The notes under the pieces are model-generated. The model was not told where the DNA came from. It was given only the letters and a program-made list of their open reading frames with translations, and searched no databases. A stretch of 64,000 nt of DNA from Alteraurantiacibacter buctensis. Its GTDB lineage: Bacteria; Pseudomonadota; Alphaproteobacteria; Sphingomonadales; Sphingomonadaceae. The stretch covers positions 1 through 64,000 of the forward strand of contig NZ_WTYV01000007.1 of assembly GCF_009827655.1 (NCBI RefSeq). The letters are read 5' to 3'. How positions within the stretch are numbered: position 1 is the first letter of the stretch; every line of letters starts with the position of its first letter. Shown in pieces: positions 42,498-59,782 of this stretch. A program made the translations under genes and the position numbers.

Positions 42498-42501
42498 GTG
42501 C

Positions 42502-43260
42502 TCAATCCTTATCATTCAGAAAGCCGCAGACTGCGGCGATGACGGCATCCTGCTGGTCGAGATGCGGCGAATGGCGGCAATCGGGCAGTTCGACCCGGGT
42601 GGTGTCGGCCAGAACGGCCGCGATACGGTCGAGCTGATCCAGGGTGCCATATTGATCATCATGCCCATGAATTAGCAGGGCCGGAGCGGAAATGCCGCCG
42701 AGCAGACCTTCAATATTCCAGTCGCGAAAACGGGGATCGAGCCAGATAGCAGACCAGTCATCAAAAAGAGCAATCGGGTCCGCGTGATAGCGTTTCATCC
42801 GTTCGCCCATGTCTGTTTGCGGAAAGCGCGCGGCGACCTCGGCAATGCTGCTGTGGGTCAGATCTTCCACCAGGACATGCGGGGCCTCCAAGGTCAGGCT
42901 GGCCACCCGCCCGGGGTGCATATTTGCCCCGATCAGCGCAATCGAGGCCCCGTCGCTATGCCCGAACCAATGCGCCCTCTCCATGCCAAGGGCGTCCATG
43001 ACATCCGACAACAGCGCCGCCTCGCGGTGCATGTAGTCGGGCTCGCGCCTGGTTGTGTCCGGATCGCTCCAGCCATGCCCCATCCGCGACCAGGCGACAA
43101 CTTCGCGGCCGGTGGCGCTGGCCAGCATGGCCGGAAACTCCTTCCACAGCTTGATCGAGCCAAGACCCTCATGCAGCAACAGGATGGGCAAGCCTACGCC
43201 ACCGCCCCATCGCGCGAATTCCAGCCGCGCCGATCCCACAGTCATGAATGCGCTGCTCAC
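42502..43260 (-). CDS. Alpha/beta hydrolase of the box operon
   Basis: 252 residues with the nucleophile elbow GHSDGAS, oxyanion region LLLHEGLGSIKLW, acid in HGHDDQYGT and base in CRHSPHLDQQD. It resembles hydrolases and enol-lactonases found in box and ketoadipate clusters. It may remove dead-end CoA esters or lactones; the substrate is not known. ATGA overlap with the stop of the fused hydratase/dehydrogenase gene. Confidence 0.75.
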   Translation of the reverse strand: MSSAFMTVGSARLEFARWGGGVGLPILLLHEGLGSIKLWKEFPAMLASATGREVVAWSRMGHGWSDPDTTRREPDYMHREAALLSDVMDALGMERAHWFGHSDGASIALIGANMHPGRVASLTLEAPHVLVEDLTHSSIAEVAARFPQTDMGERMKRYHADPIALFDDWSAIWLDPRFRDWNIEGLLGGISAPALLIHGHDDQYGTLDQLDRIAAVLADTTRVELPDCRHSPHLDQQDAVIAAVCGFLNDKD

Positions 43261-45272
43261 TTGGGTTCACCCCGTGCAAGGGCGAACAGGGCCGGCGAAG
43301 CTCCGATGCCCATTTCCTCCAGCCGTCGCACTACTTCGGACAAGCCCACATGGCGTGCATGATACATCGGGCCTCCGGTCCAGGCAGGCCAGCCGTAACC
43401 ATTCAGCCAAACCACATCGATATCCGACTCCCGCAAGGCAATGCCGTCTTCAAGCAGTTGGGCGCCTTCGTCGACCATGGGCCAAAGCAGGCGATCGAGC
43501 ACCTCGGCGTCGCTGAATTCGCGCCGGACTACCCCATTATCCCTTGCAAACTCGGCGATGATCCGACGCGCCTCTTCCGAGGGGACAGGCTTGCTATCCT
43601 CCCCGTAGTCATAGAACCCGGCCTGAGTCTTCTGACCTCTCCGCCCCGCCTCGCACAGCCTTTCGCGGATGGTCGATCCGGTGGAGGTTTCCGGCGACCA
43701 GCCGAGGTCAAGCCCCGCCAGATCACCCACGCGGATCGGGCCCATGGCCATGCCGAAGGCCTCCATGACGCCATCCACCTGCTCTGGCGCGGCGCCTTCG
43801 ACCACCATCGCCTCGGCATGTTTGCGGCGCACCGCCAGCATGCGGTTACCGATGAAGCCCCAGGCGTTGCCCGAAAGGACGGCAACCTTGCCAAGCCTTT
43901 TGGCTAGGGCAAAGGCGGTGGCCAGAACATCGGGCGAGGTCTCTGCGCCCTGCACGATCTCCAGCAGTTTCATGATGTTGGCGGGCGAGAAGAAATGCAT
44001 TCCGACCACGTCGGCCGGTCGCGAAGTGGCCGCTGCGATTTCATCAAGATCGAGATAGGACGTGTTGCTCGCCAGAATGGCGCCAGACCGCGCGATCCGG
44101 TCAAGGCTGGCGAAGATCTCCTGTTTCACCGCCATCGTTTCGTATGCGGCTTCGATGATCAGGTCGGCATCGGCCAGCGCGTCGATGGTGGTGCCGCAGG
44201 AAAGCAGAGCGCGCGCAGCATCGGCCTTTGCCGAAGTCATCCGCCCCGACGCGACATTGCTGTCGAGTACCTTGGCTATATGCGCCTGCCCCCGGGCGAG
44301 AGCCGCGGGGTCGCGTTCGAAAAGGTGAACCGGCAATCCTGCACTGATCAGGGCAATGGCAATGCCGCTACCCATGGTGCCGCTGCCAATAACGCCCGCG
44401 CGTTCGACCGGGCGTGGATCGATACCGGCGATAACGGGCACTTTGGCAGCTTCACGTTCGGCAAAGAAGACATAGCGAAGGGCTTCTGTTTGCGGGCCTG
44501 CCCGCAATTTCAGAAAGATCTCGCGCTCGCGCGTGGCGCCTTCGGCAAACGGCAGTTCAGTAGCCGCACGAACCGAAGCGATAATCGCCGGTGGTGCGTC
44601 CAGACCGCGAAACTTGCGCGCGTTGCGCTTGGCGAACTCGACATAAACCCCGTCATCCACCTTCTGCGCAGCAAGGTCGCGGGTACGGCGCGGTGGCTTT
44701 TCGGCCATTTCGCCCGCAAACCTGATGGCCGCTGATCCCAGGTCTCCGTCGGCGATGCGGTCGACCAGACCCATGGCGAGCGCATCGGGTGCCTTGACCG
44801 GATCGCCAAGAGCAATGATGTCCAGCGCCCGCTCGACGCCCACCAGACGCGGCAGGTGCTGCGTCCCGCGCGCTCCCGGCATCAGGCCAAGCTTGACCTC
44901 GGGCAGGCCCAGCTTCGCGTCCTGCGTGGCAATCCGGTAATGGCACGCCATGGCGATTTCCATGCCGCCGCCCAGTGCCGTGCCGTGGATGGCCGCCACT
45001 ACGGGCTTGGCCGAGGCTTCAATCGTATCGACAACTTCGGTCAGAAGGGGCTGGGTCGACGGCTTGCCAAACTCCTTGAGATCGGCCCCGGCAAAAAAGG
45101 TTCGGCCCGCACAGGCGATCACCAGCGCAGCTACATCCGCATCGGCATTCGCCCGGGCTATCCCTTCGACAAGTGCCGCACGCACTGCCTGGGAAATCGC
45201 GTTGACCGGCGGATTATCGATGGTGAGCGTGGCGATCACGCCCGAACGGGTCCAGTTCGTCAACCCGGCCAT
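43257..45272 (-). CDS. Fused enoyl-CoA hydratase/3-hydroxyacyl-CoA dehydrogenase (FadB-like)
   Basis: 671 residues. Residues 1-190 form a crotonase domain (ACAGRTFFAGADLKEFG, IHGTALGGGMEIAMAC, LGLPEVKLGLMPGARGTQ). From about 290 is a Rossmann NAD domain (AGVIGSGTMGSGIAIALISA), followed by the dehydrogenase C-terminus with GMHFFSPANIMKLLEIV. It should hydrate 2,3-dehydroadipyl-CoA and oxidise 3-hydroxyadipyl-CoA to 3-oxoadipyl-CoA in the box pathway. The order and 3-base spacing to the boxD-like gene indicate one transcript. Confidence 0.88.
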   Translation of the reverse strand: MAGLTNWTRSGVIATLTIDNPPVNAISQAVRAALVEGIARANADADVAALVIACAGRTFFAGADLKEFGKPSTQPLLTEVVDTIEASAKPVVAAIHGTALGGGMEIAMACHYRIATQDAKLGLPEVKLGLMPGARGTQHLPRLVGVERALDIIALGDPVKAPDALAMGLVDRIADGDLGSAAIRFAGEMAEKPPRRTRDLAAQKVDDGVYVEFAKRNARKFRGLDAPPAIIASVRAATELPFAEGATREREIFLKLRAGPQTEALRYVFFAEREAAKVPVIAGIDPRPVERAGVIGSGTMGSGIAIALISAGLPVHLFERDPAALARGQAHIAKVLDSNVASGRMTSAKADAARALLSCGTTIDALADADLIIEAAYETMAVKQEIFASLDRIARSGAILASNTSYLDLDEIAAATSRPADVVGMHFFSPANIMKLLEIVQGAETSPDVLATAFALAKRLGKVAVLSGNAWGFIGNRMLAVRRKHAEAMVVEGAAPEQVDGVMEAFGMAMGPIRVGDLAGLDLGWSPETSTGSTIRERLCEAGRRGQKTQAGFYDYGEDSKPVPSEEARRIIAEFARDNGVVRREFSDAEVLDRLLWPMVDEGAQLLEDGIALRESDIDVVWLNGYGWPAWTGGPMYHARHVGLSEVVRRLEEMGIGASPALFALARGEPK

Positions 45273-45275
45273 AAC

Positions 45276-46820
45276 TCACATGCCCCCGATAGCGGTCAGG
45301 ATACGATCACTCGCCTGAATGGCACTGCGCTGCAGGTAGGGCATCATGCCGATGATCCCGCCCAGTTCCGCGCCGCCCCCCGCCCGTCCAGGCCCGCCGT
45401 GCTGCAAATGCGGCAGGGCTGCACCGTGGCCTGTGGCAAACTCGGCATTGTCGCGATCAACGATCATGATACGCCCGTGGAAGCTGGAAACCCCGCCGAC
45501 AAGGTCGTTAATGGCGGCCGCATCGTTGCTGAAGATCGACAGCGCCAGCGATCCCTCGCCCGCATTCGCCAGCACGATGGCCTCCTGGGCATCTGCATAG
45601 GGCATCAGTGTGGCCACCGGCCCGAAAGCTTCGACGGCGTGAACTGCCTTCGCCACTGCAGGTCGATCGCAGCGCAGCAGCGTCGCGGCAAAGAATGCGC
45701 CCTTATCGAGCTCTCCGCCGAGTTGCGGAATGATGCCGCCGGTCACCAGTTCGGCCTCGGTCCGCAGCGTGGCGAGATTGGACATCACGTCTTCGCGCTG
45801 GGCAATCCCCGCCAGCGCTCCCAGGCGCGTGGTATCGCTGCGCGGATCGCCAATCGTTGCCTTGCCCAGACGTGCCACCACTGCGCCCTGCACCTGATCG
45901 ATCAGATGTGCGGGAACCAGAACACGGCGAATAGCGGTGCACTTCTGCCCCGCCTTCTGTGTCATTTCACGCACGACTTCCTTGATGAACAGGTCGAATT
46001 CAGGTGCCTCTGGCGAAGCGTCCGGGCCGAGAATCGCAGCATTGAGGCTATCCTGCTCAGCGGAGAAACGCACGGTCCGCGCAATGATATTGCGCCGGGC
46101 CTTGAGCATGTTGGCAGTCGCGGCGGAGCCGGTGAAGGCAACACTGTCCTGCCCGTCAAGCCGGTCGAGCAGGTCACCCGCTGAACCCAGCAGCAATTGC
46201 ACCGCGCCCGGTGGCAAGGCACCACTTTCGATCATTATCCGGAATGCAGCCTCGGTCAGGTAGGCACCGACCGTGCCCGGCTTCACAATCGCGGGCATCC
46301 CTGCCAACAGCGTGGGCGCCAGCTTTTCAAGCATTCCCCATACGGGGAAATTGTAGGCGTTGATGTGGATCGCAGCCCCGCGCAAAGGCGCAAGGATGTG
46401 CTGACCGATGAAGTCGCCCTTGCTGATCGTCTCGCGCGCGCCGTCGGTCATGACCCGTGCGTCGGGCAGGCCTTTCGCCTTTGACGAATAGACGAATAGC
46501 GTGCCGATACCGCCCTCGATATCGAAGGCACTGTCGCTGCGGGTCGCGCCGGTGAAGGCCGACAGTGCGTAAAGCTCGTCCTTGCGCGCAGTCAGCGCGT
46601 CAGCCAGCGCACGCAGCATCTTGCCGCGCTGCTGGAACGTCATGGCGCGCAGGGCCGGTCCACCGACCTCGCGCGCATGTTGCAGCATGGCGCCAGGGTC
46701 GGCCTCTGAGGGCATCAGGGCAACTGTCGAGCCATCGATGGCCGAGACAAGCTGCGCTTCCTCGCCCGCCGGCAGAAACCGGTCCTGGGCATAGGAACGA
46801 AGGGCAATTGGCTGGGTCAT
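45276..46820 (-). CDS. boxD: 3,4-Dehydroadipyl-CoA semialdehyde dehydrogenase (BoxD/PaaZ-like)
   Basis: 514 residues of an aldehyde dehydrogenase resembling the N-terminal half of PaaZ without its MaoC domain: RGAAIHINAYNFPVWGMLEK, VKPGTVGAYLTEAAFR, SVAFTGSAATAN, catalytic Cys in TQKAGQKCTAIRR, and EAFGPVATLM. BoxD oxidises the BoxC product to 3,4-dehydroadipyl-CoA with NADP. Its place between a PaaG-like gene and the beta-oxidation fusion supports this function. Confidence 0.85.
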   Translation of the reverse strand: MTQPIALRSYAQDRFLPAGEEAQLVSAIDGSTVALMPSEADPGAMLQHAREVGGPALRAMTFQQRGKMLRALADALTARKDELYALSAFTGATRSDSAFDIEGGIGTLFVYSSKAKGLPDARVMTDGARETISKGDFIGQHILAPLRGAAIHINAYNFPVWGMLEKLAPTLLAGMPAIVKPGTVGAYLTEAAFRIMIESGALPPGAVQLLLGSAGDLLDRLDGQDSVAFTGSAATANMLKARRNIIARTVRFSAEQDSLNAAILGPDASPEAPEFDLFIKEVVREMTQKAGQKCTAIRRVLVPAHLIDQVQGAVVARLGKATIGDPRSDTTRLGALAGIAQREDVMSNLATLRTEAELVTGGIIPQLGGELDKGAFFAATLLRCDRPAVAKAVHAVEAFGPVATLMPYADAQEAIVLANAGEGSLALSIFSNDAAAINDLVGGVSSFHGRIMIVDRDNAEFATGHGAALPHLQHGGPGRAGGGAELGGIIGMMPYLQRSAIQASDRILTAIGGM

Positions 46821-46844: not shown

Positions 46845-47621
46845 TCAGGATCGGGGCTTGGCGAAGCGGAGCACCGCCTGCCGATAGGCGTCCGTCGCGC
46901 CGAGCTTGCCCTGGGCGACACGTTCGCTTGCCAGAGCAGCTTCAAGCGTTCCGGTCGGATTGGAGCGCAGCTGGCGCTTGATTGCCGACAGGGCTTGCGG
47001 CGAGCGCTGGGCCAGGCCGCGTGCGATCTCGTTCGCGGTGTCGGCCAGTAACGCATCATCGACCACCCGACTGACAAGGCCGATCATAGCCGCTTCCTCG
47101 CCACTGACTGCCCGACCCGTAAGCGCCAAATCTAGCGCCCGCGCCTGGCCGACAAGGCGGGGCAGCGACCAGCTCGCGCCGCTGTCGGGGCCGAGCGCGA
47201 CGTTGACGAAGCCGAACTGGAACCTAGCCGATCTGGCGGCCAGCACGATGTCGCAGGCGATGGCGAGGGCAGCGCCGGCCCCGAACGCCATGCCGTTTAC
47301 GGCTGCGATGACCGGTTGCGGAAGGTTTGCCAGCCGCAGTACCAGCGGATTGTAGTTTTCTTCGAGTGATGCCGCGAGATCGGGCACCTCACGGCGAGCA
47401 AAGCTGGCCGCCCGCTCGCCAAGGTCCTGCCCTGCACTGAAGGCCCTGCCGCAACCCGTCAGCACGACTGCGCCAATGGTCGGCTCGCCTTCAACCTTGT
47501 CAAGGGCGTCGCGCAGAGCCTGGTGCATCGCCCCATCGATGGCATTCAATTGCGCTTCACGCACCAGGCTGATGGTGGCGACACCATCGGCTATGTGGAG
47601 CCGGACCCGATCCTCAGCCAC
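46845..47621 (-). CDS. Enoyl-CoA hydratase/isomerase (PaaG-like)
   Basis: 258 residues of the crotonase fold: CGRAFSAGQDLGERAA, VNGMAFGAGAALAIACD (oxyanion hole), and GPDSGASWSLPRLVG. The Asp in the last motif and the SWxLPRLVG pattern resemble PaaG isomerases. In this operon it may shift the double bond of 3,4-dehydroadipyl-CoA to the 2,3 position. Its start overlaps the upstream DUF4863 gene stop by 8 bases. Confidence 0.8.
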   Translation of the reverse strand: MAEDRVRLHIADGVATISLVREAQLNAIDGAMHQALRDALDKVEGEPTIGAVVLTGCGRAFSAGQDLGERAASFARREVPDLAASLEENYNPLVLRLANLPQPVIAAVNGMAFGAGAALAIACDIVLAARSARFQFGFVNVALGPDSGASWSLPRLVGQARALDLALTGRAVSGEEAAMIGLVSRVVDDALLADTANEIARGLAQRSPQALSAIKRQLRSNPTGTLEAALASERVAQGKLGATDAYRQAVLRFAKPRS

Positions 47622-48096
47622 GGGTGAACTCGATAGCGCCGCCCGGAAGGAGATAGAGGACCAGGGCCTTGCCGCCGGTTACCGTGGGGTGATGGGCCGA
47701 ACCGGGACCATAGACCTTCCAGCCCGCACCCTGTCCGTCAAACGCGGCGCCCAGATCAATAGGGATGACCAGGTCGATCTCGCCATTGGGGTGCGCATGA
47801 TGCGGACCGACGATTTCGGTCATCTCCACCACATCAACCGACATACCGGCCAGTGCCTCACCTGCGGGCACGGCACGCCCGAACTTGATGCCGCCTGCCT
47901 CGCGGCCGCACAGCCAGCCCTCCTCGCATCCACGCAGGACCCATTCGCGCGCATCTGCATGCCATGCGCCATCGGCCGGGAAATCACGGTTGAGGCGCGC
48001 TTGGAGCGCATCGTCGAGTGGCGCGCCAGCGATGGCATCGGTCACCACGCCAAGGTGGGTCACGAAACCCTCGGGTGTTTGCGGACGTTCGCCCAT
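47614..48096 (-). CDS. DUF4863 family protein (4-hydroxylaminobenzoate lyase-like)
   Basis: 160 residues: a helical N-terminus and a small cupin-like C-terminus with GPHHAHPNGEIDLVIPID and GPGSAHHPTVTGGKALVLYL. The family includes PnbB-type 4-hydroxylaminobenzoate lyases, as I recall. No nitrobenzoate reductase is present in the window, so its role in a benzoyl-CoA operon is open: detoxification of a reactive intermediate is one possibility. Confidence 0.6.
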   Translation of the reverse strand: MGERPQTPEGFVTHLGVVTDAIAGAPLDDALQARLNRDFPADGAWHADAREWVLRGCEEGWLCGREAGGIKFGRAVPAGEALAGMSVDVVEMTEIVGPHHAHPNGEIDLVIPIDLGAAFDGQGAGWKVYGPGSAHHPTVTGGKALVLYLLPGGAIEFTRG

Positions 48097-48112: not shown

Positions 48113-49354
48113 TCAGCCTGCCGCGACAGCGACAGGGATGAATTCCTTCAACTGCCGGTCTGCATCGGCCAGAACGGCGGGATCGACTGCAACACCCAGT
48201 TCCACCAATCGTCGGCCGTGCGAATAGTCGCGGGCGTTATTGATACAATCGAGCGCCATCACCCGGCCTGCGTCATCCAGATAGACGACTGCAAACTTTC
48301 TCGACGCAGGATCACCGCGCAGCACCGTCCGGGCATGACCGGCCGACAGGCCGACGGTCTGCAATTTGAGGTCGTACTGGTTCGACCAGAACCAGGGCGT
48401 AGCCTCATAGTGGGCTGCTTCGCCGCAAATGGTTCGCGCTACCACCGTTGCCATGTCATTGGCGTTCTGCACCGATTCAAGCCGTATCACGGCCCCACCG
48501 GCAAACTTGTTCGCATGCGCCGCGCAATCCCCGATGGCGAAGATGTCGGCAAGCGAGGTGCGGCATTGTGCGTCCACCAGCACGCCATTGCCCGTTTCGG
48601 CACCAGCTTTTGCCAGCGGTTCAACGCAAGGGGCAATACCGATGCCCACGATCACCATGTCGGCGGGCAGAACCTCGTCACTGGCAAGCCTGACCCCGCT
48701 GACGCGACCCTGCCCTTCAATCCCGGCAATCTCCTGCCCGGTGCGCAGGTCAACCCCATGGGCGCGGTGATCGGCCTCGTAGAAAGCGGACAGCGCCTCA
48801 CCGGCAACCCGCGCCAGAACGCGCGGCAGGGCTTCGAGCAGAACCACCTGCTTGCCCAACTTTGTCAGCACGGCAGCGGCCTCGAGCCCGATATACCCCC
48901 CGCCAACCACCACCACGTGCTGCACGCCCGGCAGCTCTGCCATGATTGCGTCGACATCCTCACGGTCCCGCACACAATGCACGCCCGGCAGATCGGCACC
49001 CGGCAATGGCAGGGTGCGCGGGTCACCGCCCGCTGCCCAGATCAGTTTGCCATAGGTAATCTCGCGCCCGTTGGCGCATTGCAGCCGATGCCCGTCGGCA
49101 TCAACTGCCGTCACCGTATGGCCCAGCAGAAGCGTAATGTCCTTTTCCGCCCAATAGGATGCCGGACGCAGATAGAGACGTTCGAACGGCTTTTCCTGCG
49201 CCAGATATTCCTTCGACAGCGGCGGGCGTTCATAGGGCAGCTCGGTCTCGCGACCGATGATGGCGATCGAACCGGCAAATCCGGCAGCGCGCAAGGCTAT
49301 CGCCGCCTGCGCGCCGCCGTGGCCCCCACCCACAATGGCAACATCAAAGGTCAT
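48113..49354 (-). CDS. FAD-dependent ferredoxin (rubredoxin-type) reductase
   Basis: 413 residues with FAD motif [34 protein letters not shown] motif [17 protein letters not shown] and [14 protein letters not shown]. It matches the putidaredoxin/biphenyl-dioxygenase reductase family, which passes electrons from NADH to a 2Fe-2S ferredoxin. As no BoxA is encoded here, this reductase is a candidate electron source for BoxB and/or the Rieske oxygenase at 59783. Overlaps benzoate-CoA ligase (ATGA). Confidence 0.85.
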
Positions 49355-50910
49355 GCATCCTCCCGCAGGCGGAACCTCTGGATCTTGCCGGTGGCTGTCT
49401 TGGGAAGTTCGGCAACGAAGGTGATCCAGCGCGGATACTTGTAAGGGGCCAGGTGGCTCTTGCAGTGATCTTTCAGTTCCTGCTCCAGCGAAGGGGTCGG
49501 CTGCACATCGTTGTGCAACACCACATAGGCATGCGGTTTCACCAGCCCGTCGGCATCCTCGGCCCCCACTACTGCGGCTTCCAGCACCATGTTGTGACCC
49601 GACAGTGTCTCTTCCACTTCGATCGGAGAAACGTAGATGCCCCCGACCTTGAGCATGTCATCGGCGCGGCCAGCATAGGTCAGCCAACCCTCCTCGTCGC
49701 AGACATACTTGTCTCCGCTCGCTGTCCATTCGCCGCAAAAGGTCGCCGTCGATTTTTCGCGATTCCGCCAGTAGCCGATTGCGCTGGTCGGTCCGCAGAT
49801 CTGCAGGTTGCCGATCTCTCCGGGCGGCACTTCCGATCCGTCATCGCCGACAAGCCGCACGCGGTAGCCATCGACGACACGCCCCGTGCAACCATACCGC
49901 ACCGAGCCGGGTCGCTGGGATACGAAGATGTGCAGCATCTCCGTCGACCCCAGACCATCGAGCACGTCGGCACCGAACTTGTCGGCAAAAGCCTTGCCAA
50001 TGTGACCGGGCAGGGCCTCGCCAGCCGAAGTTGCGATCCGCAATCGAGGCGCGTCCTGCTTCGTAGGACAGGATGGGTGGGCAAGCCACCCCGCAAAGAA
50101 CGTCGGCACTCCGCCCAGTACCGAGACCTGATGTTCGACGATGAGCGCCGAAATCGCATCGGGAGTCGACCGTCCGTTGTGCAGCACAACCGTCGCGCCA
50201 GCGGCATAGGGAAAGCTCAGGGAATTGCCCAGGCCGTAGGCGAAAAACTGCTTCGCCACCGACAGCACCACATCATCTTCACGCAGGCCCATCGTTCCCA
50301 GCGCGTAGAGATTGGCAGTAAGCCGTATCGATCCGTGCAGGTGCATCGCCCCCTTGGGCCTGCCGGTAGACCCCGAGGTGTAAAGCCAGAACGCCACATC
50401 GTCACGATGTGTGGGCGCCGGATCGGGCGCCGGTTGGGCATCGGCGAGCAAGGCCTCGAGATCATCAAACGGCCCGCCCTCGCTGCCGACGAACTTCACG
50501 AAGGGTTCGGCTGCGGCGATCGCTTGCCACTTGTCGGACAATTCGCCCGACACGAAGACAGCAACGGCACCGCTGTTGTTCAGTATCCAGCCATAATCGT
50601 CTTCGGTCAGAAGCGTGTTGAGCGGAACCGGGATCACGCCTGCACGCATTGCACCCAGGAAGACCGTCGGGAAATCGCGCGTATCGGTAAGGCACAGCAA
50701 GACCCGCTGATCACGCCGCACGCCAAGGCGGTTGAAAACGTCCGCCATGCGGGCAACCCTGTCGCCGAGTTCACGGTAGGTGCAAGTTCCCCGGTGATCG
50801 ATGATGGCCGTCTTGCCGGGATGGCGGGCCAGATTGGCGGCGAGGAGATCTTCCGCCGCGTTGAAGTATTCCGGCAGATCGGCAGCGCAGCGCCCGTCAC
50901 TCGTGTTCAT
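49351..50910 (-). CDS. bclA: Benzoate-CoA ligase
   Basis: 519 residues of the ANL superfamily: P-loop [33 protein letters not shown] (a stretch typical of benzoate-CoA ligases), [20 protein letters not shown] and C-terminal Lys in [16 protein letters not shown]. It forms benzoyl-CoA from benzoate, ATP and CoA in the cytosol and primes the box pathway. A strong stem-loop lies between it and boxB. Family members can also take hydroxy- or aminobenzoates. Confidence 0.88.
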
Positions 50911-50933
50911 CGGCTATCCCCCATTCCCACCAA

Positions 50934-50969
50934 GGGTCGGGGCACCGGACTTACCCGGCGCTCCGACCC
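50934..50969 (-). promoter_or_regulatory. Stem-loop between boxB and bclA
   Basis: GGGTCGG-GGC-ACCGG pairs with CCGG-CGC-TCCGACCC around a short loop in the 68-base gap. There is no T-tract, so it is more likely an mRNA processing or stability element than a terminator. Confidence 0.5.
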
Positions 50970-50978
50970 CGGCTCAGT

Positions 50979-52376
50979 TCAGGCCGCCCTGACGTATTCG
51001 AATTCGAACGGCATGTTGTTGATTCCGCGATCCGGCGGGCAGGTCCAGTTGGCACACTTGCCTGGCTCCGTGACACCCACCATGAGCGACTTGACATAGG
51101 CCCGGTCGAATTCGCTGGGCAGTGCGGCCCTGACCTGATCCGGGTCGCTCGGCTTGCCGCTCGTATCGAAGGCCATTCCCGCCCAGACGCCAACACTGCG
51201 GTTGAACCGTTCGGAAGGCAGGGTCAGTTCAACCTGGAAACCTGCCTTCGCGATCGTCCGGTTCCAGCGGGTAAGCCCGATGGCACAGTCGCGAACGTAA
51301 GCATTGCGGGTGATCAGGTTCATCGCATTGCGCGTGGCGACTTGCTCGAGTCCGCCGGGGGTATCGACATCCTCGAAGGTGTCGATGCAGTCGTGGTCTT
51401 CGTAGGTCCCCTCGTCAGGACGCCCCTTCAAGCCATTCGCCCAGTAAGTGGCGGCATTGGAGCTGATTTCCGCGCCGAACAGGTCAAGTGCCGAGGAATA
51501 CCAGAAGTTGATGTAGCGCTGGATCAGCGGCAGATCGATCACCCCGGACTTGCGCAGGGTTTCCGGATCATCGGTTCCCAGCTTCTGCATTTCCTCCAGC
51601 GTGCGCCGGATGACCCGGGCAATCCCCGTTTCGCCCACGAACATGTGATGGGCCTCTTCGGTCAGCATGAAGCTGCAGGTCCGCGCCAGGGGATCAAAGC
51701 CGCTCTCGGCCAGCGACTTGAGCTGGTATTTACCGTCACGATCGGTGAAGTACGTGAACATGTAGAACGAAAGCCAATCGTCGATCGGCTCGTTGAACGT
51801 GCCCAGGATACGCGGGTTGTCGACATCGCCCGAATGGCGGTGCAGCATTTCTTCCGCTTCCTCGCGACCATCGCGGCCGAAGTAGGCGTGAAGAAGATAG
51901 ACCATCGCCCACAAGTGGCGGCCTTCCTCCACATTGACCTGGAACAGGTTGCGCATGTCGTAAAGCGACGGCGCGGTCAGGGCCAGCAGCCGCTGCTGCT
52001 CAACCGACGCGGGTTCGGTGTCGCCCTGTGTCACGATCAGGCGGCGCAAAGCGGAGCGATATTCACCGGGAACCTGCTGCCAGGCCGGCTTGCCCTTATG
52101 GTCGCCGAAGCCGATGGTGCGATCCTGCTGCTTGTCGGCAAGAAAGATGCCCCAGCGATAATCCGGCATCTTGACGTGGCCGAACGTCGCCCAGCCCTTG
52201 GCATCGACCGAGGTGGCAGTACGCAGATAAACGTCGTGGCCCTGGTAGGTAGTCGGCCCCAGGTCCTTCCACCAGTCGATAAAAGCCGGCTGCCAGTGTT
52301 CGAGCGCACGTTGCAGGGCACGGTCAGTTGACAGGTCTACGTTATTGGGAATGCGGGACTGGTAATCGATCGCCAT
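50979..52376 (-). CDS. boxB: Benzoyl-CoA 2,3-epoxidase subunit BoxB (copy 1)
   Basis: 465 residues. All di-iron ligands expected from Azoarcus evansii BoxB (as I recall: E120, E150, H153, D211, E240, H243) occur here shifted by one: E121, E151, H154, D212, E241 and H244, within NVEEGRHLWAMVYLL, FTDRDGKYQL and LTEEAHHMFVGETG. It epoxidises the ring of benzoyl-CoA with oxygen and two electrons. No BoxA reductase is in the window. Located just after boxC and an intrinsic terminator. Confidence 0.95.
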   Translation of the reverse strand: MAIDYQSRIPNNVDLSTDRALQRALEHWQPAFIDWWKDLGPTTYQGHDVYLRTATSVDAKGWATFGHVKMPDYRWGIFLADKQQDRTIGFGDHKGKPAWQQVPGEYRSALRRLIVTQGDTEPASVEQQRLLALTAPSLYDMRNLFQVNVEEGRHLWAMVYLLHAYFGRDGREEAEEMLHRHSGDVDNPRILGTFNEPIDDWLSFYMFTYFTDRDGKYQLKSLAESGFDPLARTCSFMLTEEAHHMFVGETGIARVIRRTLEEMQKLGTDDPETLRKSGVIDLPLIQRYINFWYSSALDLFGAEISSNAATYWANGLKGRPDEGTYEDHDCIDTFEDVDTPGGLEQVATRNAMNLITRNAYVRDCAIGLTRWNRTIAKAGFQVELTLPSERFNRSVGVWAGMAFDTSGKPSDPDQVRAALPSEFDRAYVKSLMVGVTEPGKCANWTCPPDRGINNMPFEFEYVRAA

Positions 52377-52414
52377 TGCAACGCTCCTTGACCGCCAGGC
52401 GCGGCCCGATCCTG

Positions 52415-52453
52415 AAAAAATCCCGCCGCCCCTGGGAGAGGAGTGGGGCGGCG
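52415..52453 (-). terminator. Intrinsic terminator/attenuator between boxC and boxB
   Basis: On the minus strand CGCCGCCCC and GGGGCGGCG make a perfect 9-base stem with a 12-base loop, followed within 4 bases by TTTTTT. This is a textbook rho-independent terminator, sitting 8 bases after the boxC stop and upstream of boxB in the same direction. Confidence 0.75.
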
Positions 52454-52460
52454 AGAAGCT

Positions 52461-54146
52461 TCAAACCCTCTTGCGGTCAAATTCGGCGCGTCGGCCGGAC
52501 CCGAACAGCTTCAAGGCACCGCCATCGCCCACGGCATTGGGCCGGATAAAGATCCAGTTCTGCCAGGCCGACAGGCGACCAAATACCTTCGACCAGACGT
52601 TCTCGGCACCGGCAAAGCGCAGTGACGCTTCCATTCCGGTGCAGGCATCGGGCGACAGGCCGGCGCGCTCGTCAATCGCCAGGCGCACTTCATCTTCCCA
52701 ATCGATGTCGTCGGGCGCGAAAGTCACGAGACCCAGGTCATGGGCCTCGCCAGAAGGGATCGGCGAACCCGCGAGCGCGCGCAACTCGTCGATGCGTTCC
52801 AGATTGCCGAGGAAGCGCGAACCCAGCCGGGTGAGGCCGTTGCACATCGGGAAATGGCCAAAATTCGCTTCACCAAGATGGAGAACAGGGCCGTTTTCGG
52901 GGTCCGAAATCAGTTCGAGCATGTACCCGCGATCCGCCGCGAAAGCCAGTTCCGCCAGTGTCCCTGCAAAAGCAGAACCCGGCTCAATCACCGCGTATAT
53001 CGAACGCGAGGACACATCGAGGCGCGACAGCGTGCGGCGCAGCATGCCGATTACCTCGTTGGCGAACCAGTGGTCCTTGGCGGCCAGCAGTGCCGCATCA
53101 TAGGCCAGCACCTTGGCTCCATCGCCCGTGGTCTTGAGAACCCACAAGCCCAGCTCGGGTTCGTTGGTGCGCAGCATCAGGATGGCGTCATCAAGCTCGC
53201 GCGCCATTTGCAGGGGCCAGAAGCCGGTGCCCTCGGCCAGCATCGCCGCGGCATCCGCTGGAGGAGCCGTGTCGGGAGCCTTGACCGTTACGGTAGCAAG
53301 CCCACGAGCGCGATCGAACGTCACGTCGACAGTGCCGTAATGGTATCCGGCCTCGTCGATGACACGCTTGAGCGGATCGAGATGAACACCCGCCCCCGCC
53401 TGCGGCCGGGCGCTGCCGGCAGCAAGCGCTTCTGCCTTGGCCCGCACCGCCTCGTCCCAGCGGCCACGCGGCGCAATATCGTCAACCAGATTCCAGTCCT
53501 TGGCCCTGCGGCCGCGCACGCCCTCTTCCGAGGTGCAAAACACATCGGCCAGATCACGGCGCACCTTGCGCTTGTCGACCACGCGGGTGAGGCCCCCGGT
53601 TCCGGGCAGGACCGCCAGCAACGGCACTTCGGGAAGCGACACGGCAGAGGAGCGATCATCGATCAGCAAAATCTCGTCGCAAGCCAGCGCTACTTCATAG
53701 CCACCGCCAGCGCAGGTGCCGTTGACCGCAGCAAGGAACTTGAGCGAGCCGTTCTGCGACGAGTCCTCGAACCCGTTGCGCGTTTCATTGGTGAACTTGC
53801 AGAAATTGACCTTCCATGCGTGGCTGGAAATGCCCAGCATGTAGATGTTCGCACCCGAACAGAAGATGCGCTCGTTCGCACTCGTCAGCACCACACAGGC
53901 CACCTGCGGATGTTCGAAGCGCAGGCGCTGGACAATGTCGTGGAGCTCCATGTCCACGCCAAGGTCATAGCTGTTCAGCTTGAGCTTGTAGCCCGGCAGC
54001 AAACCACCCTCAGGGTCGACATCCATCGAAACGGTAGCGATGCGCCCGTCGATTGCGACCTTCCAGTGGCGATAATCGCCGCCAGTCCGGTCGTAGGTGA
54101 AAATTGCCGCATCCTGTGCGGCTTTTTCCGCCAATTGCGTTGCCAT
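52461..54146 (-). CDS. boxC: Benzoyl-CoA-dihydrodiol lyase / 2,3-epoxybenzoyl-CoA dihydrolase
   Basis: 561 residues from ATG 54146 (GAGGAGCG 7 bases upstream), the usual BoxC length. Two crotonase-like halves; the first has VVLTSANERIFCSGANIYML, NGTCAGGGYEVALACDE and LPEVPLLAVLPGTGGLTRV. The enzyme opens 2,3-epoxybenzoyl-CoA hydrolytically to 3,4-dehydroadipyl-CoA semialdehyde and formate. First structural gene after boxR; a perfect FNR-type box lies in its promoter region. Confidence 0.93.
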   Translation of the reverse strand: MATQLAEKAAQDAAIFTYDRTGGDYRHWKVAIDGRIATVSMDVDPEGGLLPGYKLKLNSYDLGVDMELHDIVQRLRFEHPQVACVVLTSANERIFCSGANIYMLGISSHAWKVNFCKFTNETRNGFEDSSQNGSLKFLAAVNGTCAGGGYEVALACDEILLIDDRSSAVSLPEVPLLAVLPGTGGLTRVVDKRKVRRDLADVFCTSEEGVRGRRAKDWNLVDDIAPRGRWDEAVRAKAEALAAGSARPQAGAGVHLDPLKRVIDEAGYHYGTVDVTFDRARGLATVTVKAPDTAPPADAAAMLAEGTGFWPLQMARELDDAILMLRTNEPELGLWVLKTTGDGAKVLAYDAALLAAKDHWFANEVIGMLRRTLSRLDVSSRSIYAVIEPGSAFAGTLAELAFAADRGYMLELISDPENGPVLHLGEANFGHFPMCNGLTRLGSRFLGNLERIDELRALAGSPIPSGEAHDLGLVTFAPDDIDWEDEVRLAIDERAGLSPDACTGMEASLRFAGAENVWSKVFGRLSAWQNWIFIRPNAVGDGGALKLFGSGRRAEFDRKRV

Positions 54147-54166
54147 CGAATCGCTCCTCAGCCCGT

Positions 54167-54206
54167 CACTGCCGGAACAATAGGTCATTGATGGCGATCA
54201 AACAAG
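54167..54206 (-). promoter_or_regulatory. Putative boxC promoter with FNR/FixK box in the spacer
   Basis: On the minus strand TTGTTT and TATTGT are 17 bases apart, a reasonable sigma-70 promoter about 24 bases upstream of the boxC start signals. The spacer contains TTGATCGCCATCAA (54188-54201), a perfect FNR box. A bound FNR dimer here would overlap the polymerase, so repression is the simplest reading; this is inference. Confidence 0.55.
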
Positions 54207-54209
54207 CAC

Positions 54210-54219
54210 TATATTTCAT
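54210..54219. promoter_or_regulatory. TATATTTCAT element, copy 1 (boxC upstream)
   Basis: The same 10 bases occur in the same orientation at 55103-55112 at the boxR start. Both are preceded by GC and followed by a TGC or AGC triplet. Shared by the two BoxR-relevant promoters, it is a candidate part of a BoxR site. Confidence 0.3.
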
Positions 54220-55094
54220 CCAGCAAACGAGGCTACGACTCCTTCAAGCATGCTGACGGTGTGATTGAAATCCTGCCCCGAAGTGTCGAGGCGAGCATCG
54301 GCTCTGGCGTAGTCAGCCTCTCGAGCTGCCAGAATGGCCTTCAGGTCGTTCATGGCAGTGCGGTTACCCGTCATCGGGCGCAAATCACCTTGTGCAACCA
54401 CTCTCGACATGTGGTCTTCAGGCGTCGCCTGCAGCCAGACTGTCCAGGTTTCACGAAGCAACTGGTCGAACAGCTTACCATCCGCCACCACTGCACCTGG
54501 AGCCGCGATGACTGCAGCTGCGTTTGTGCGGCAGATATCTCGCAACACGTCGGCCTCATAACGCCGTAACGCCGCCGGACCATTGATCTCCAGCAGGACG
54601 CCAATTGATCCGCCATATCTCTGCTCGACCTCCTTCGATATCTCGAAGAATGGTACACTCAACCGGTCGGCAAGAGCCTGGCCCAGAGAGCTTTTTCCTG
54701 CTCCGCGCAAGCCGATGAGAGCAACCCGCCGCCCCTTCCCATCCACGGCATCGGGCCTCTCTCCCAGCCATGCGAGCGCTTCGCGAACACGCTCTGGCGG
54801 TGCGCGTCGCAGCAGTTGGGCGGCATGTGCCACACCGGCATCGCGCTCCCCGCCCATTGGCAGCAACTCAGCCATCGCCATGCCCAGCGCTTCGGAAATG
54901 GCGAGGAGCATTTCAACCGAGGGATTGCCGGTACCAGCTTCCAGATGGGCCAGATAGCGTTCAGAAGCACCTGAAGCTGCGGCCAGTTGCTTGCGGGTGA
55001 AGCCAGCCCTCGCACGTGCCGAACGTATTCGCTGAGCGATCTCCTGGCTGCCGACAAAGCTGGCCTGACCGCTCTGGATCGTCACATCTTGCAT
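54216..55094 (-). CDS. boxR: BoxR-type benzoyl-CoA-responsive regulator (HTH + shikimate-kinase-like domain)
   Basis: 292 residues from ATG 55094; ATG 55112 would add six. An XRE helix-turn-helix (about 18-75, with FTRKQLAAASGASERYLAHL and GNPSVEMLLAISEALGM) joins a shikimate-kinase-like domain (about 120-285) with the P-loop LIGLRGAGKSSLGQALA. This fusion is diagnostic for BzdR/BoxR repressors, which release DNA on binding benzoyl-CoA. Same direction as, and 70 bases upstream of, boxC; divergent from the flavodoxin gene. Confidence 0.92.
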   Translation of the reverse strand: MQDVTIQSGQASFVGSQEIAQRIRSARARAGFTRKQLAAASGASERYLAHLEAGTGNPSVEMLLAISEALGMAMAELLPMGGERDAGVAHAAQLLRRAPPERVREALAWLGERPDAVDGKGRRVALIGLRGAGKSSLGQALADRLSVPFFEISKEVEQRYGGSIGVLLEINGPAALRRYEADVLRDICRTNAAAVIAAPGAVVADGKLFDQLLRETWTVWLQATPEDHMSRVVAQGDLRPMTGNRTAMNDLKAILAAREADYARADARLDTSGQDFNHTVSMLEGVVASFAG

Positions 55095-55102
55095 AGTTGC
55101 TA

Positions 55103-55112
55103 TATATTTCAT
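55103..55112. promoter_or_regulatory. TATATTTCAT element, copy 2 (boxR/flavodoxin gap)
   Basis: Partner of 54210-54219. It lies at the beginning of boxR, next to TTGCATAGTTGC, in the gap shared with the divergent flavodoxin gene, where autoregulation by BoxR would act. Confidence 0.3.
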
Positions 55113-55154
55113 ATCTGCCGGTGATACGAATCTTATTTCCGAATGGAGAGTGCT

Positions 55155-55616
55155 ATGTCGAGCGGAAACAGGCGCGCGGGCATTTTTGTTGCCACGATGA
55201 CCGGCCTGGCGGACCTGTGCGCCGAAGAAATCGAAAGTGCGCTGGCGGCTGCAGGCGTTGCTTGTGAACGCCAGTTGATGGATGGACTCGACAGCAGCGC
55301 CTTCGCAGATTTTGATCTGCTTGTTATCGTCTCATCGACGTATGGGCACGGTGAAATTCCAGACAACGGGCAGGCGCTGTTCACCGCGCTCGAAGCTGGG
55401 GCAGACCTGTCCGGCAAAGACTATGTGGTCTTCGCGCTCGGCGACCGGACATATTCGGACACCTTCTGCGCAGCTGGCGAGAGGTGGGATCAGGTGATGT
55501 CCGCATGCGGCGCATCCCGCGTCGTCGATGTTGAATGCCATGACGCATCCAGCGGCACGCTTGCAGAAGATGTCGCTGGCGAGTGGGCTGCCGGCTGGGC
55601 TCCGGCGATAGCTTAA
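55155..55616 (+). CDS. Flavodoxin
   Basis: 153 residues from ATG 55155 with GGAGAG at a proper distance (ATG 55143 overlaps that site). The flavodoxin-type FMN loop is IFVATMTGLADLCAEEI, with the second loop VSSTYGHGEIPDNG and third loop FALGDRTYSDTFC. It is a small cytosolic FMN electron carrier. Divergent from boxR and flanked by boxC and a second boxB, so a role as electron donor to BoxB in place of BoxA is an attractive inference. Confidence 0.85.
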   Translation: MSSGNRRAGIFVATMTGLADLCAEEIESALAAAGVACERQLMDGLDSSAFADFDLLVIVSSTYGHGEIPDNGQALFTALEAGADLSGKDYVVFALGDRTYSDTFCAAGERWDQVMSACGASRVVDVECHDASSGTLAEDVAGEWAAGWAPAIA

Positions 55617-55627
55617 GGAGACAAGCG

Positions 55628-56107
55628 ATGGATGCAGTCATTTCAGACCCCGCAATGGAACATGCGCACAGTGCCATTGGCGGTTTCGTCGCGCGGTGCG
55701 CCCTGCTCGATTACCGTGTCAGTCAGTTCATGGCCCGGTGGTTCTGCAGCCACGAGAAGCAGAAATTCCTCTCCTATACCTTGAAAGCCATGCCTTTTGT
55801 GGAGAAGCGGCAGGTTATCGAAGAGCGACTGACAAACTGGCACACCGATCCTGAGGCGCTGCGGACCACGATGAGCGACATCGCTTCCGTGCTGGAGCGA
55901 CGCAACCTGGTTGTGAGCGGCGTCCTCTCGCGTCGATCGTCGGGTGCCTTGTGCGTCAAGAGCTTTTCGGGCGCCCGCTTCATCTCCGAACCAGGGGCAA
56001 TCGACATCATCGATATTGCAGATCTGGCTGCATTGTCGGAAAAGGCAAGCGAACTGGCAGAACGAGTGATGGCGCTTGGCCTCGGCCTGAAGCAAGGCGG
56101 CAATTGA
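55628..56107 (+). CDS. Conserved-looking helical protein of unknown function
   Basis: 159 residues from ATG 55628 with AAGGAGAC upstream, 11 bases after the flavodoxin stop, so co-transcribed with it. Mostly helical: HSAIGGFVARCALLDYRVSQ, KAMPFVEKRQVIEERL and a terminal ALSEKASELAERVMAL. Not recognised. Linkage suggests an accessory role for the flavodoxin or BoxB. Confidence 0.65.
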   Translation: MDAVISDPAMEHAHSAIGGFVARCALLDYRVSQFMARWFCSHEKQKFLSYTLKAMPFVEKRQVIEERLTNWHTDPEALRTTMSDIASVLERRNLVVSGVLSRRSSGALCVKSFSGARFISEPGAIDIIDIADLAALSEKASELAERVMALGLGLKQGGN

Positions 56108-56123
56108 CCGGCCACGAGAAAAT

Positions 56124-56155
56124 GGAGGCGGGCCCGATTTGGCTTGCCCGCCTCC
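56124..56155. terminator. Bidirectional terminator between convergent genes
   Basis: GGAGGCGGGC and GCCCGCCTCC form a perfect 10-base stem with a 12-base loop between the stop of the plus-strand helical protein and the stop of the minus-strand boxB copy 2. A short TTTT follows on the minus strand. Confidence 0.7.
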
Positions 56156-56171
56156 TCACATCCAGATCGGG

Positions 56172-57665
56172 TCAGGCGATCCGGACGTATTCATAATCCA
56201 GCGGCTGGCTGTTGATCCCGGTGCGCGGTGGGGCAATCCAGCTGGCATAGCTGCCAGGCGCATGGCAGGGTTTCATCAGCGAGTTGATGAACTGCAGATC
56301 GTCTTCGGTAGGCAGAAAGCTATCGCGGTTAGCATTCCACGTCTGCTCGTCCACGATATCCCCGGAAGGGGTGATGCAGGCCCCGGCAAATTCACCGATC
56401 CGGCGATTGAACCCCTTGTGCGGCTGGGTGACGCAGAAATCGATGCCTGCTTTGGCAATCGCCCGGTTCCACCGCTCAATGCCCGGCTGGCAATCTGCAA
56501 TGTAATCATCAAGCAGCCGGGAGTTGATGGCGCGCAGCGCGGGCATATCCTCGCTCACCAACTTGCCCTCGACGATCCGCGTCACGGGATAGGTTTCCCC
56601 TTCAAGCACATGATCATCGCCATCGAGACGCGCTTCGCCAAAGCGCCCTTTCAGCCCTGCCGAAAAAGCCGCCGCAGCGTTGCCGGACACCTCACTGCCG
56701 AACAGGTCGCGCGTGACGGACATGTGGAAGTTGGCCTTGCGCTGGATCAGCGGCAGATCAATCACGCCAAGCGCTCGCACTGCTTTGATGTCATGGGGAT
56801 CGGTGATCCCCGCCTTCTTCATAGCGGTGCAGGTCGCTTCGATCACCCGCCCCAGCCCGGTTTCTCCCACGAACATGTGGTGCGCTTCTTCGGTCAGCAT
56901 AAAGCGGCAGCTGCGCGACAGCGGATCGAAGCCGCTTTCTGACAGCGAGGCGAGTTGCATCTTGCCGTCACGGTCGGTGAAATAGGTGAACATGAAAAAT
57001 GACAGCCAATCGGGCGTGGCTTCGTTGAAGGCACCCAGGATGCGCGGATTGTCCGCGTGCCCGCTACGCCGCTCGAGCAGCGCCTGCGCTTCCTCGCGTC
57101 CGTCCCGCCCGAAGTATTTCACCAGCAGGTAGACCATCGCCCACAGGTGTCGTCCTTCCTCGACATTGACCTGGAACAGGTTGCGCATGTCGTAGAGCGA
57201 GGGAGCAGTACGCCCCAGGTGACGCTGCTGTTCAACGGATGCCGGCTCGGTATCGGCCTGCACTACGATCAAACGGCGCAGCAGCGAGCGGTACTCGGCG
57301 GGCACTTCCTTCCACACGGGCTCGCCCTTGTGCTTGCCGAAAGGAATGGTGCGCCCGTCAACCTCGGGTGCCAGCAGGATTCCCCAGCGATAGTCCGGCA
57401 TCTTCACATGGCCGAATTTTGCCCAGCCGGCCGGGTCCACCCCCACGGCCGTGCGCAGATACACATCGGAAGCCTGAAACCCGTCCGGCCCCATCGCCTT
57501 CCACCAATCGATGTACTCCGGCTGCCACTGTTCAAGAGCCCGCTTTAGCTGACGGTCCGAGGACAGGTTCACATTATTGGGGATCAGGTCATCGTAATCG
57601 ACCTCGACAAAGCCGTCGCCCTTCACCGAGGCATCGTCTTCCAGCAGCGTTTCGACTTCACTCAC
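56172..57665 (-). CDS. boxB2: Benzoyl-CoA 2,3-epoxidase subunit BoxB (copy 2)
   Basis: 497 residues, related throughout to copy 1 but clearly diverged, with an extra acidic N-terminus of about 22 residues. The di-iron ligands are all present: E140, E170, H173, D231, E260 and H263. It should therefore be an active epoxidase for benzoyl-CoA or a substituted analogue. It is transcribed alone, with its own promoter region holding a perfect FNR box, which suggests use under different oxygen conditions from copy 1. Confidence 0.93.
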   Translation of the reverse strand: MSEVETLLEDDASVKGDGFVEVDYDDLIPNNVNLSSDRQLKRALEQWQPEYIDWWKAMGPDGFQASDVYLRTAVGVDPAGWAKFGHVKMPDYRWGILLAPEVDGRTIPFGKHKGEPVWKEVPAEYRSLLRRLIVVQADTEPASVEQQRHLGRTAPSLYDMRNLFQVNVEEGRHLWAMVYLLVKYFGRDGREEAQALLERRSGHADNPRILGAFNEATPDWLSFFMFTYFTDRDGKMQLASLSESGFDPLSRSCRFMLTEEAHHMFVGETGLGRVIEATCTAMKKAGITDPHDIKAVRALGVIDLPLIQRKANFHMSVTRDLFGSEVSGNAAAAFSAGLKGRFGEARLDGDDHVLEGETYPVTRIVEGKLVSEDMPALRAINSRLLDDYIADCQPGIERWNRAIAKAGIDFCVTQPHKGFNRRIGEFAGACITPSGDIVDEQTWNANRDSFLPTEDDLQFINSLMKPCHAPGSYASWIAPPRTGINSQPLDYEYVRIA

Positions 57666-59411: not shown

Positions 59412-59741
59412 CTATCTCTGGCTTGATGGGGTTCGCACAATCATGCCTTTCAGAACTTCCGTCACGCAGATTTGGCATGCAAGCCGCGAGTTGGGCTGAG
59501 CTTTATCGACGAACTCCAGAAGCGCCTCTTCGCCATCGCCCGGCGCGGGCAACTGCGACAGAAATTCTGTGTCGACGTAAACATGGCACGTTGCGCAGGC
59601 ACACATGCCGCCACAATCGGCATCGATGCCGGGCACGTCATTTGCGCGGGCAGCAGTCATCAAAGACTGGCCACATTCTGCCTGGACAGAGCGGGCAGCA
59701 CCTTGCGCATCGATAAATGTTATGGTGGGCACGAAATGCAC
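59412..59741 (-). CDS. 2Fe-2S ferredoxin (adrenodoxin/putidaredoxin type)
   Basis: 109 residues with the cluster Cys pattern CGGMCACATC plus a distal Cys in SRLACQICV, and the VYVDTEF and LEFVD segments of this class. GTG 59732 is an alternative start. It carries single electrons from a ferredoxin reductase to an oxygenase: the Rieske protein encoded 41 bases upstream, or BoxB. Confidence 0.88.
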   Translation of the reverse strand: MHFVPTITFIDAQGAARSVQAECGQSLMTAARANDVPGIDADCGGMCACATCHVYVDTEFLSQLPAPGDGEEALLEFVDKAQPNSRLACQICVTEVLKGMIVRTPSSQR

Positions 59742-59782
59742 TCCCGGTGGAATGATTGTTACCTAGATGTGTGAGAGGAAAC

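Follow-up and report, generated by a model that had tools for sequence, protein, structure and literature searches.

A box pathway cluster without BoxA in Alteraurantiacibacter buctensis, and a flavodoxin proposed as electron donor of its benzoyl-CoA epoxidase

The window analysed here is a stretch of 64,000 nucleotides from Alteraurantiacibacter buctensis (GCF_009827655.1, NZ_WTYV01000007.1, positions 1-64,000, forward strand). It carries a gene cluster of the box pathway, with two genes for the benzoyl-coenzyme A (CoA) epoxidase BoxB, a flavodoxin gene and no gene for BoxA. The genome is 3.77 Mb in size, is assembled in 22 contigs (the window lies on contig C20) and is 99.73% complete; about 0.3% is possibly unseen. 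On the minus strand, a tightly spaced operon runs from 55112 down to 41295 with intergenic gaps of -14 to +84 bases. Its order is boxR, boxC, boxB1, benzoate-CoA ligase, a flavin adenine dinucleotide (FAD) reductase, a PnbB/DUF4863-type gene, enoyl-CoA hydratase, boxD, a FadB-like gene, a hydrolase and a thiolase. Beside boxR, the plus strand carries the flavodoxin gene and then an open reading frame (ORF) without a family, followed by boxB2 on the minus strand. The principal features are:

45276..46820, minus strand: boxD (NF008868, 567 bits; cut-off 444)
48113..49354, minus strand: FAD-dependent NAD(P)H reductase of the putidaredoxin reductase/BphA4 type (Pyr_redox_2 and Reductase_C; 3lxd, 562 bits)
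49351..50910, minus strand: benzoate-CoA ligase family protein (TIGR02262, 673 bits; cut-off 375.25)
50979..52376, minus strand: boxB1, benzoyl-CoA epoxidase of the flavodoxin-associated type (TIGR03225, 733 bits; cut-off 499.1)
52461..54188, minus strand: boxC (TIGR03222, 882.9 bits; cut-off 712.3)
54216..55112, minus strand: boxR regulator gene, divergent from the flavodoxin gene (NF006015, 315 bits; cut-off 204)
55143..55616, plus strand: flavodoxin, the proposed electron donor of BoxB1 (PF00258, 83.8 bits; cut-off 25)
56172..57665, minus strand: boxB2, benzoyl-CoA epoxidase of the BoxA-associated type, without a BoxA (TIGR03225, 865 bits; cut-off 499.1)
59412..59741, minus strand: 2Fe-2S ferredoxin, probably not part of the box system, 41 bases from a VanA-type oxygenase gene

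BoxB, BoxC, BoxD, the benzoate-CoA ligase and BoxR all scored above their curated cut-offs, which assigns the cluster to the box pathway. The first-pass annotation had described a box operon with two BoxB proteins, a flavodoxin, a putidaredoxin-type reductase inside the operon and a ferredoxin nearby, and the profiles and coordinates agreed with this. The reductase has both the Pyr_redox_2 and the Reductase_C domain of its type, and its gene overlaps the ligase gene by 4 bases. The listed starts of the boxR and flavodoxin genes are 30 bases apart; both starts are uncertain, and the first methionine of the conserved part of the flavodoxin is at 55155. The di-iron ligands of Azoarcus BoxB are given, in the available text of PMC5489048, as Glu120, Glu150, His153, Asp211, Glu240 and His243. 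We observed that BoxB1 and BoxB2 both retain all six, as had been annotated, along with six second-shell residues, and that the two proteins share 60% identity.

The first-pass annotation had also claimed that no BoxA is present, and had proposed a search of the whole genome. The claim held for the window and for the whole genome, where the best match to the BoxA model (TIGR03224) reached 20.6 bits over model positions 9-81 (cut-off 459.2); the window thus lacks the BoxA half of a BoxAB benzoyl-CoA epoxidase. Nothing scored above the BoxA cut-off in 11 Sphingomonadales genomes, ten of which have BoxB above the cut-off, while the eleventh (G370) has a PaaA-like protein only. The same model recovered BoxA in 18 of 28 further BoxB genomes of a phylum sample, including 9/9 outside the Alphaproteobacteria, and wherever BoxA was found in that sample it adjoined boxB by coordinates. 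We then considered a class sample of 385 alphaproteobacterial genomes, 81 of which have BoxB above the cut-off; with the window genome set aside, 80 remain (G704, G718 and G744, with BoxB below the cut-off, stand outside them). BoxA was present in 14 of the 80 (in one case cut by a contig end) and absent from 66. The BoxA-less state is common among alphaproteobacterial BoxB genomes, and we rejected the idea that it is a peculiarity of the window genome.

The flavodoxin was examined by sequence and by predicted structure. Its AlphaFold2 model had a mean pLDDT (predicted local distance difference test) of 92.9, and the structural matches were flavodoxins; cindoxin was second by E-value and had the top TM-score of the 50 listed (0.89, 1.4 Å). 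By sequence, the nearest solved proteins were YqcA, cindoxin and MioC, with YqcA/MioC the closest solved flavodoxins (2m6r, 119 bits; 2hna, 105 bits), and the protein stayed below the NCBIfam cut-offs for MioC and YqcA (PRK08105, 87.3 against 160; PRK09004, 77.5 against 158). We know of no case in which YqcA or MioC is encoded with box genes. The loop residues are conserved across the family, and the protein is predicted to bind flavin mononucleotide (FMN). In the flavodoxin tree (this and the BoxB trees are quick ones, with support by the SH-like approximate likelihood ratio test, SH-aLRT, only), a sister branch of seven rows (L050, L200-L205; SH-aLRT 100) was observed beside the box flavodoxin. 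In four of its seven loci (L050, L202, L203, L205) a PaaA-like di-iron protein is encoded near the flavodoxin; some loci also have an enoyl-CoA hydratase-type gene, and L200, L201 and L204 hold hydratase-type genes only.

The association of this flavodoxin with box genes was evaluated across genomes. A box-linked flavodoxin was present in 8 of the 10 Sphingomonadales BoxB genomes. In the class sample, a profile search located it no more than about 9 kb from boxB in 19 of these 80 BoxB genomes (the eight further matches being those of the Sphingomonadales), and a whole-genome search of the remaining class genomes, except G705, which was checked for BoxA and left out of the flavodoxin search, revealed it in 10 more, still beside boxR. 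Of the resulting 29 genomes, none carries BoxA (p 0.0014; all Fisher tests reported here ignore kinship). A strong flavodoxin match (at least 194 bits) was seen in 32 of 79 BoxB genomes tested and in none of 80 genomes without BoxB, a random draw from 292 (p 3.5e-12); the latter gave two weaker matches only, of 116 and 85 bits. Three of the 32 (G458, G590 and G682) carry BoxA. As for gene arrangement, the flavodoxin was divergent from and adjacent to boxR in 37/37 box-linked loci, window included. We also collected named flavodoxin relatives, keeping the best 80 of 282, whose labels are mainly Alphaproteobacteria, Betaproteobacteria and Acidobacteriota. Among these 80 loci, 75 hold boxR, boxC or boxB and 74 hold boxR, with the flavodoxin divergent and adjacent in all 74. 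From the co-occurrence analysis suggested in the first-pass annotation, the flavodoxin emerged as a conserved component of box clusters that lack BoxA. Some genomes occur in both the whole-genome and the named sample (G188=L212, G385=L211, G239=L215, G757=L226, G680=L217, G577=L245, G499=L247, G421=L284 and G458=L255), and some locus stretches stop at contig edges.

Several observations on the distribution are recorded here. Nine genomes of genus g347, 6-9 Mb in size (loci including L083, L294 and L299), have boxB without BoxA and flavodoxin, and a genome of a sister genus (G1029) has BoxA. Three box-flavodoxin loci (L238, L271, L272) come from records labelled Mesoflavibacter, Klebsiella pneumoniae (metagenome-assembled genomes) and Phormidium, which look like wrong assignments or contamination. 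No sphingomonad box cluster was among the matches listed from the plasmid collection, and around a Phaeobacter plasmid flavodoxin (L287) the annotation shows no box genes.

Two kinds of reductase gene were found in these clusters. The operon reductase of the window is closest to 3lxd, which we take to be ArR, a ferredoxin reductase of Novosphingobium. A homologue of at least 45% identity was present at the box locus in 5 of the 10 Sphingomonadales BoxB genomes (in one further genome the contig ends before the place), in 7 of 9 named Sphingomonadales loci and in no whole-genome BoxB locus outside the Sphingomonadales. In G003 (L045) the flavodoxin, a small gene and the reductase follow in succession, and in G010 and G017 the reductase is not at the box locus. 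We give even chances to the proposal that the operon reductase reduces the flavodoxin.

The second kind belongs to the adrenodoxin-reductase/FprA-type family (best solved matches 1cjc, 240 bits, and FprA 1lqt, 214 bits). It was present in 8 of 27 flavodoxin loci, in none of 14 BoxA loci and in 1 of 50 other BoxB loci (p 1.9e-4). The gene starts 1-22 bases behind boxB in G680, G746, G757 and G669, and also in G742, the one other BoxB locus with it, which has a flavodoxin-type BoxB and in whose genome the flavodoxin of the box family was not found; in the remaining four flavodoxin loci it lies 0.6-2.1 kb behind boxB. The position directly behind boxB is the place of boxA in BoxA clusters. Among the named loci, 20 of 80 hold the FprA-type gene, 17 of them within 350 bases behind boxB, and in L237, L246 and L267 it stands beside the flavodoxin with no box genes in the locus. 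An FprA-type gene in the place of boxA suggests a chain from NADPH through the FAD reductase and the flavodoxin to BoxB, and the occurrence of this family mostly in flavodoxin loci slightly raises the odds of the flavodoxin being the donor. On a Paracoccus plasmid (L288, 4763-6453) and a Nitratireductor plasmid (L300, 5754-7468), a flavodoxin gene was observed directly behind that of an FAD-dependent oxidoreductase, with aspartate dehydrogenase in the cluster; the Paracoccus plasmid reductase shares 36-45% identity with the box-linked FprA-type reductases.

When we placed the two BoxB proteins of the window in a tree, they fell into separate groups. BoxB1 belongs to a group of 36 rows (SH-aLRT 100), of which 29 have a box-linked flavodoxin, 4 have neither donor, 3 have both and none has BoxA alone. 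The group of BoxB2 has 18 rows (SH-aLRT 100), of which 11 have BoxA, 4 have a flavodoxin (three of these being BoxB2 copies) and 3 have neither. Judged by sequence, BoxB1 and BoxB2 are different tree types and not equivalent copies. The long branch G577b was left out of the two-type tree and of the 14-row-clade tree described below, and the L142 row of the first BoxB tree was exchanged for both L142 BoxBs in the two-type tree.

Both donors occur together in three (L250, L261 and L266) of the 49 named loci that hold boxB and extend 1.4 kb or more beyond it. In L261 and L266 boxA lies between two BoxB genes: the BoxB upstream of boxA grouped with BoxA-associated and donor-less BoxBs (10 rows, SH-aLRT 99), and the one behind boxA fell into the 36-row group. 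L250 has a BoxB of the BoxA/donor-less group, and its contig ends just behind boxA. G458 has the gene order of L261 and L266; its upstream BoxB is cut by a contig end and its placement is weak. Clusters with both BoxA and flavodoxin carry both BoxB types where the contig shows it, and the window resembles such a two-type cluster minus boxA. A single boxA flanked by two BoxBs of different tree groups can be seen in L261 (942-5077), L266 (840-5071) and L142 (6625-9988). In relatives of the window, boxB2 is a broken remnant at the same place in Sphingobium wenxiniae (L212) and in the closely similar Erythrobacteraceae E2-1 (L210); G331 retains only the last 25 codons at this place, with an intact copy at a distance of about 20 kb, and G385 and L214 have the gene intact.

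A replacement of boxA in place was observed in G933 and G958, two genomes of one genus. They have no BoxA, and a flavodoxin gene begins about 50 bases behind boxB, while the seven other BoxB genomes of their family all have BoxA beside boxB (7/7). Their BoxBs belong to a 14-row group (SH-aLRT 99) in which the other 12 rows have BoxA. G933 and G958 share with G1070 the order thiolase, ligase, hydrolase, boxC, boxB, X, boxR, FadB, with proteins at 47-84% identity; X is boxA in G1070, and in G933/G958 it is the flavodoxin followed by a small thioesterase-like gene. This flavodoxin lies on a long branch shared with one flavodoxin without box linkage, and therefore probably represents a separate recruitment.

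Taken together, these results lead us to consider it likely, for the whole chain as proposed, that BoxA has been replaced in this box pathway and that the box flavodoxin is the reductant of BoxB1. The flavodoxin encoded divergently from boxR, with its predicted FMN, would take the place of the iron-sulfur flavoprotein BoxA and pass electrons to the di-iron centre of BoxB1, and would itself receive them from an FAD reductase that uses NAD(P)H. For a number of further orders, the enzyme of this step would probably be the FprA/adrenodoxin-reductase-type protein whose gene comes just after boxB; for sphingomonads it may be the BphA4-type operon reductase, and otherwise it would be a housekeeping reductase. 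BoxB2 would come from a BoxA-using lineage, without its BoxA, and would either borrow the flavodoxin chain or be in the course of being lost. All the evidence is genomic, and it is on this basis that we infer the electron flow, the FMN content, the identity of the reductase and the role of BoxB2. The first-pass annotation had raised an undescribed electron-transfer variant with flavodoxin or ferredoxin as donor. Its flavodoxin part is supported by comparison, through the linkage, the FprA-type gene, the replacement in place and the two BoxB types; its ferredoxin part is not supported.

A number of findings weigh against the flavodoxin as donor. In the BoxA genomes G590 and G682 the flavodoxin gene lies apart from the box genes (L194, L195), and the BoxA genomes G790 and G1069, from outside the class, have related flavodoxins (180-184 bits) with no box genes nearby. 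The 36-row BoxB group does not include fifteen rows labelled flavodoxin (three of these are BoxB2 copies), and four rows inside it have no detected flavodoxin. The operon reductase is similar to enzymes whose electron acceptors are 2Fe-2S ferredoxins. Kinship-corrected pairs on the BoxB tree (with the three BoxB2 rows and G577b left out) numbered only 3, too few for power, with p values of 0.25-1. Lastly, 38 BoxB rows (36 of the class sample and 2 of the Sphingomonadales) have no BoxA, flavodoxin, operon reductase or ferredoxin homologue at their locus, so at least those BoxBs draw on something general or unrecognised. When the ORFs lying up to 7 kb from boxB were clustered, the loci lacking both BoxA and the flavodoxin yielded no candidate donor in common, and the unlabelled shared families that we scanned as examples were ABC-transporter parts, acyl-CoA dehydrogenase and CoA-transferase.

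These 38 rows count in favour of a reading in which BoxB1 and BoxB2 run on general ferredoxin or flavodoxin systems, with the box flavodoxin serving some other use, such as protection against oxidative stress, and being merely co-regulated through boxR. A Paraburkholderia flavodoxin is described as countering oxidative stress during aromatic degradation, according to the available text of PMC10983741. However, co-regulation alone sits poorly with the replacement of boxA in place by a flavodoxin in G933 and G958, with the FprA-type reductase gene behind boxB and with the clusters that hold two BoxB types, and we regard this alternative as unlikely. Electrons might otherwise pass from the operon reductase to the 2Fe-2S ferredoxin (59412-59741) and on to BoxB, as in putidaredoxin-type P450 systems, with the flavodoxin incidental. 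Reductases of this type act on 2Fe-2S ferredoxins, and the ferredoxin, encoded about 1.75 kb beyond boxB2, is like putidaredoxin; against this, its gene is separated by 41 bases from a VanA-type oxygenase gene, a comparison of 91 whole-genome BoxB loci with the 80 named loci of the flavodoxin showed a homologue only in the window and in L244, and the reductase itself is at the box locus in only half of the Sphingomonadales BoxB genomes. The ferredoxin was rejected as a box donor on its neighbour and its lack of conservation at box loci, contrary to what had been annotated; it probably serves the VanA-type oxygenase, and we consider the ferredoxin chain very improbable. Least credible of all is a BoxA encoded in the 0.3% of the genome that the sequence does not cover, or one too diverged to be recognised. 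The assembly does consist of 22 contigs, but the weak best match and the absence of any match above the cut-off in 10 further Sphingomonadales genomes led us to reject a hidden BoxA, and where BoxA occurs elsewhere it adjoins boxB, a place that is sequenced here.

Returning to the flavodoxin as donor, a wider form of the proposal can be put forward tentatively, at somewhat below even chances. A flavodoxin chain would be the standing reductant of a whole BoxB branch (Alphaproteobacteria, uncultured Betaproteobacteria and Acidobacteriota), running from NADPH through an FprA-type reductase, whose gene holds the place of boxA, and the flavodoxin to BoxB, with the BphA4-type enzyme in sphingomonads and at least one further independent flavodoxin recruitment. 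The sister branch would serve stand-alone PaaA-like epoxidases, and flavodoxin would be a general donor of di-iron acyl-CoA epoxidases.

Comparison with characterized systems sets the cluster beside BoxAB of Azoarcus evansii (BoxB structures 3PER and 3PM5), with which it shares the iron ligands and the accompanying boxR, boxC, boxD, ligase and DUF4863-type genes. Azoarcus BoxA is described, in the available text of PMC4498308, as a BoxB-reducing protein that depends on NADPH and FAD and carries two 4Fe-4S clusters; unlike that system, the window has a flavodoxin and a separate reductase gene, and no BoxA. PaaABCE is a related di-iron system (PF05138) that, like BoxB, acts on an aryl-acyl-CoA; it differs in having several subunits and in being reduced by PaaE, as the same source describes. 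In the P450cin system, cindoxin passes electrons from cindoxin reductase to P450cin, so that a dedicated flavodoxin stands between an NADPH reductase and a monooxygenase (available text of PMC9687028). This may serve as a precedent, by analogy, for a dedicated flavodoxin feeding a monooxygenase, although the acceptor there is a cytochrome P450 and here a di-iron enzyme, and the reductase here is of the BphA4 type and in other orders of the FprA/adrenodoxin reductase type.

The other genes of the operon, and the ORF behind the flavodoxin gene, are:

41295..42515, minus strand: 3-oxoadipyl-CoA thiolase (TIGR02430, 682 bits; cut-off 597)
42502..43260, minus strand: alpha/beta hydrolase-like protein (named by reading, without a scan), with homologues in many box loci
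43257..45272, minus strand: FadB/FadJ-like bifunctional protein (top NCBIfam match 420 bits, below cut-off)
46845..47621, minus strand: enoyl-CoA hydratase/isomerase family protein (top NCBIfam match PaaG-like, below cut-off)
47614..48096, minus strand: small, conserved box-cluster gene of the PnbB family, DUF4863 in annotated clusters (PF16155, 158 bits)
55583..56107, plus strand: ORF 3' of the flavodoxin gene, start uncertain (71-74% identity in G331, G188 and G385)

The PnbB-family protein shares 45% identity with the DUF4863 protein of a Mycetohabitans box cluster. The ORF at 55583..56107 gave no match in Pfam and NCBIfam scans, and it is kept in several close sphingomonad relatives. Further along, 59412-61795 holds the ferredoxin gene, the gene of the VanA-type Rieske oxygenase and a divergent ORF beyond, read as an IclR-type regulator; this is probably a separate demethylase-like unit. 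Near the window edge, an ORF at 62901-63905 matches a family model of phenol 2-monooxygenase (637 positions) over positions 309-636 only.

A link between flavodoxin and BoxB was not found in open-licence papers, and a box pathway variant with the proposed flavodoxin donor would be new and, from its distribution in genomes, apparently widespread. In a 2024 survey of benzoate-CoA ligases (available text of PMC10803450), box clusters without BoxA were scored as incomplete, and in one case this was taken as an impediment. Should the flavodoxin prove to be the donor, the box route would be open to many genomes at present scored as unable to follow it, and the flavodoxin and its reductase would be the parts needed to express such BoxBs elsewhere. 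The clusters with two BoxBs and two donors would offer a natural experiment on the choice of reductant by a di-iron enzyme.

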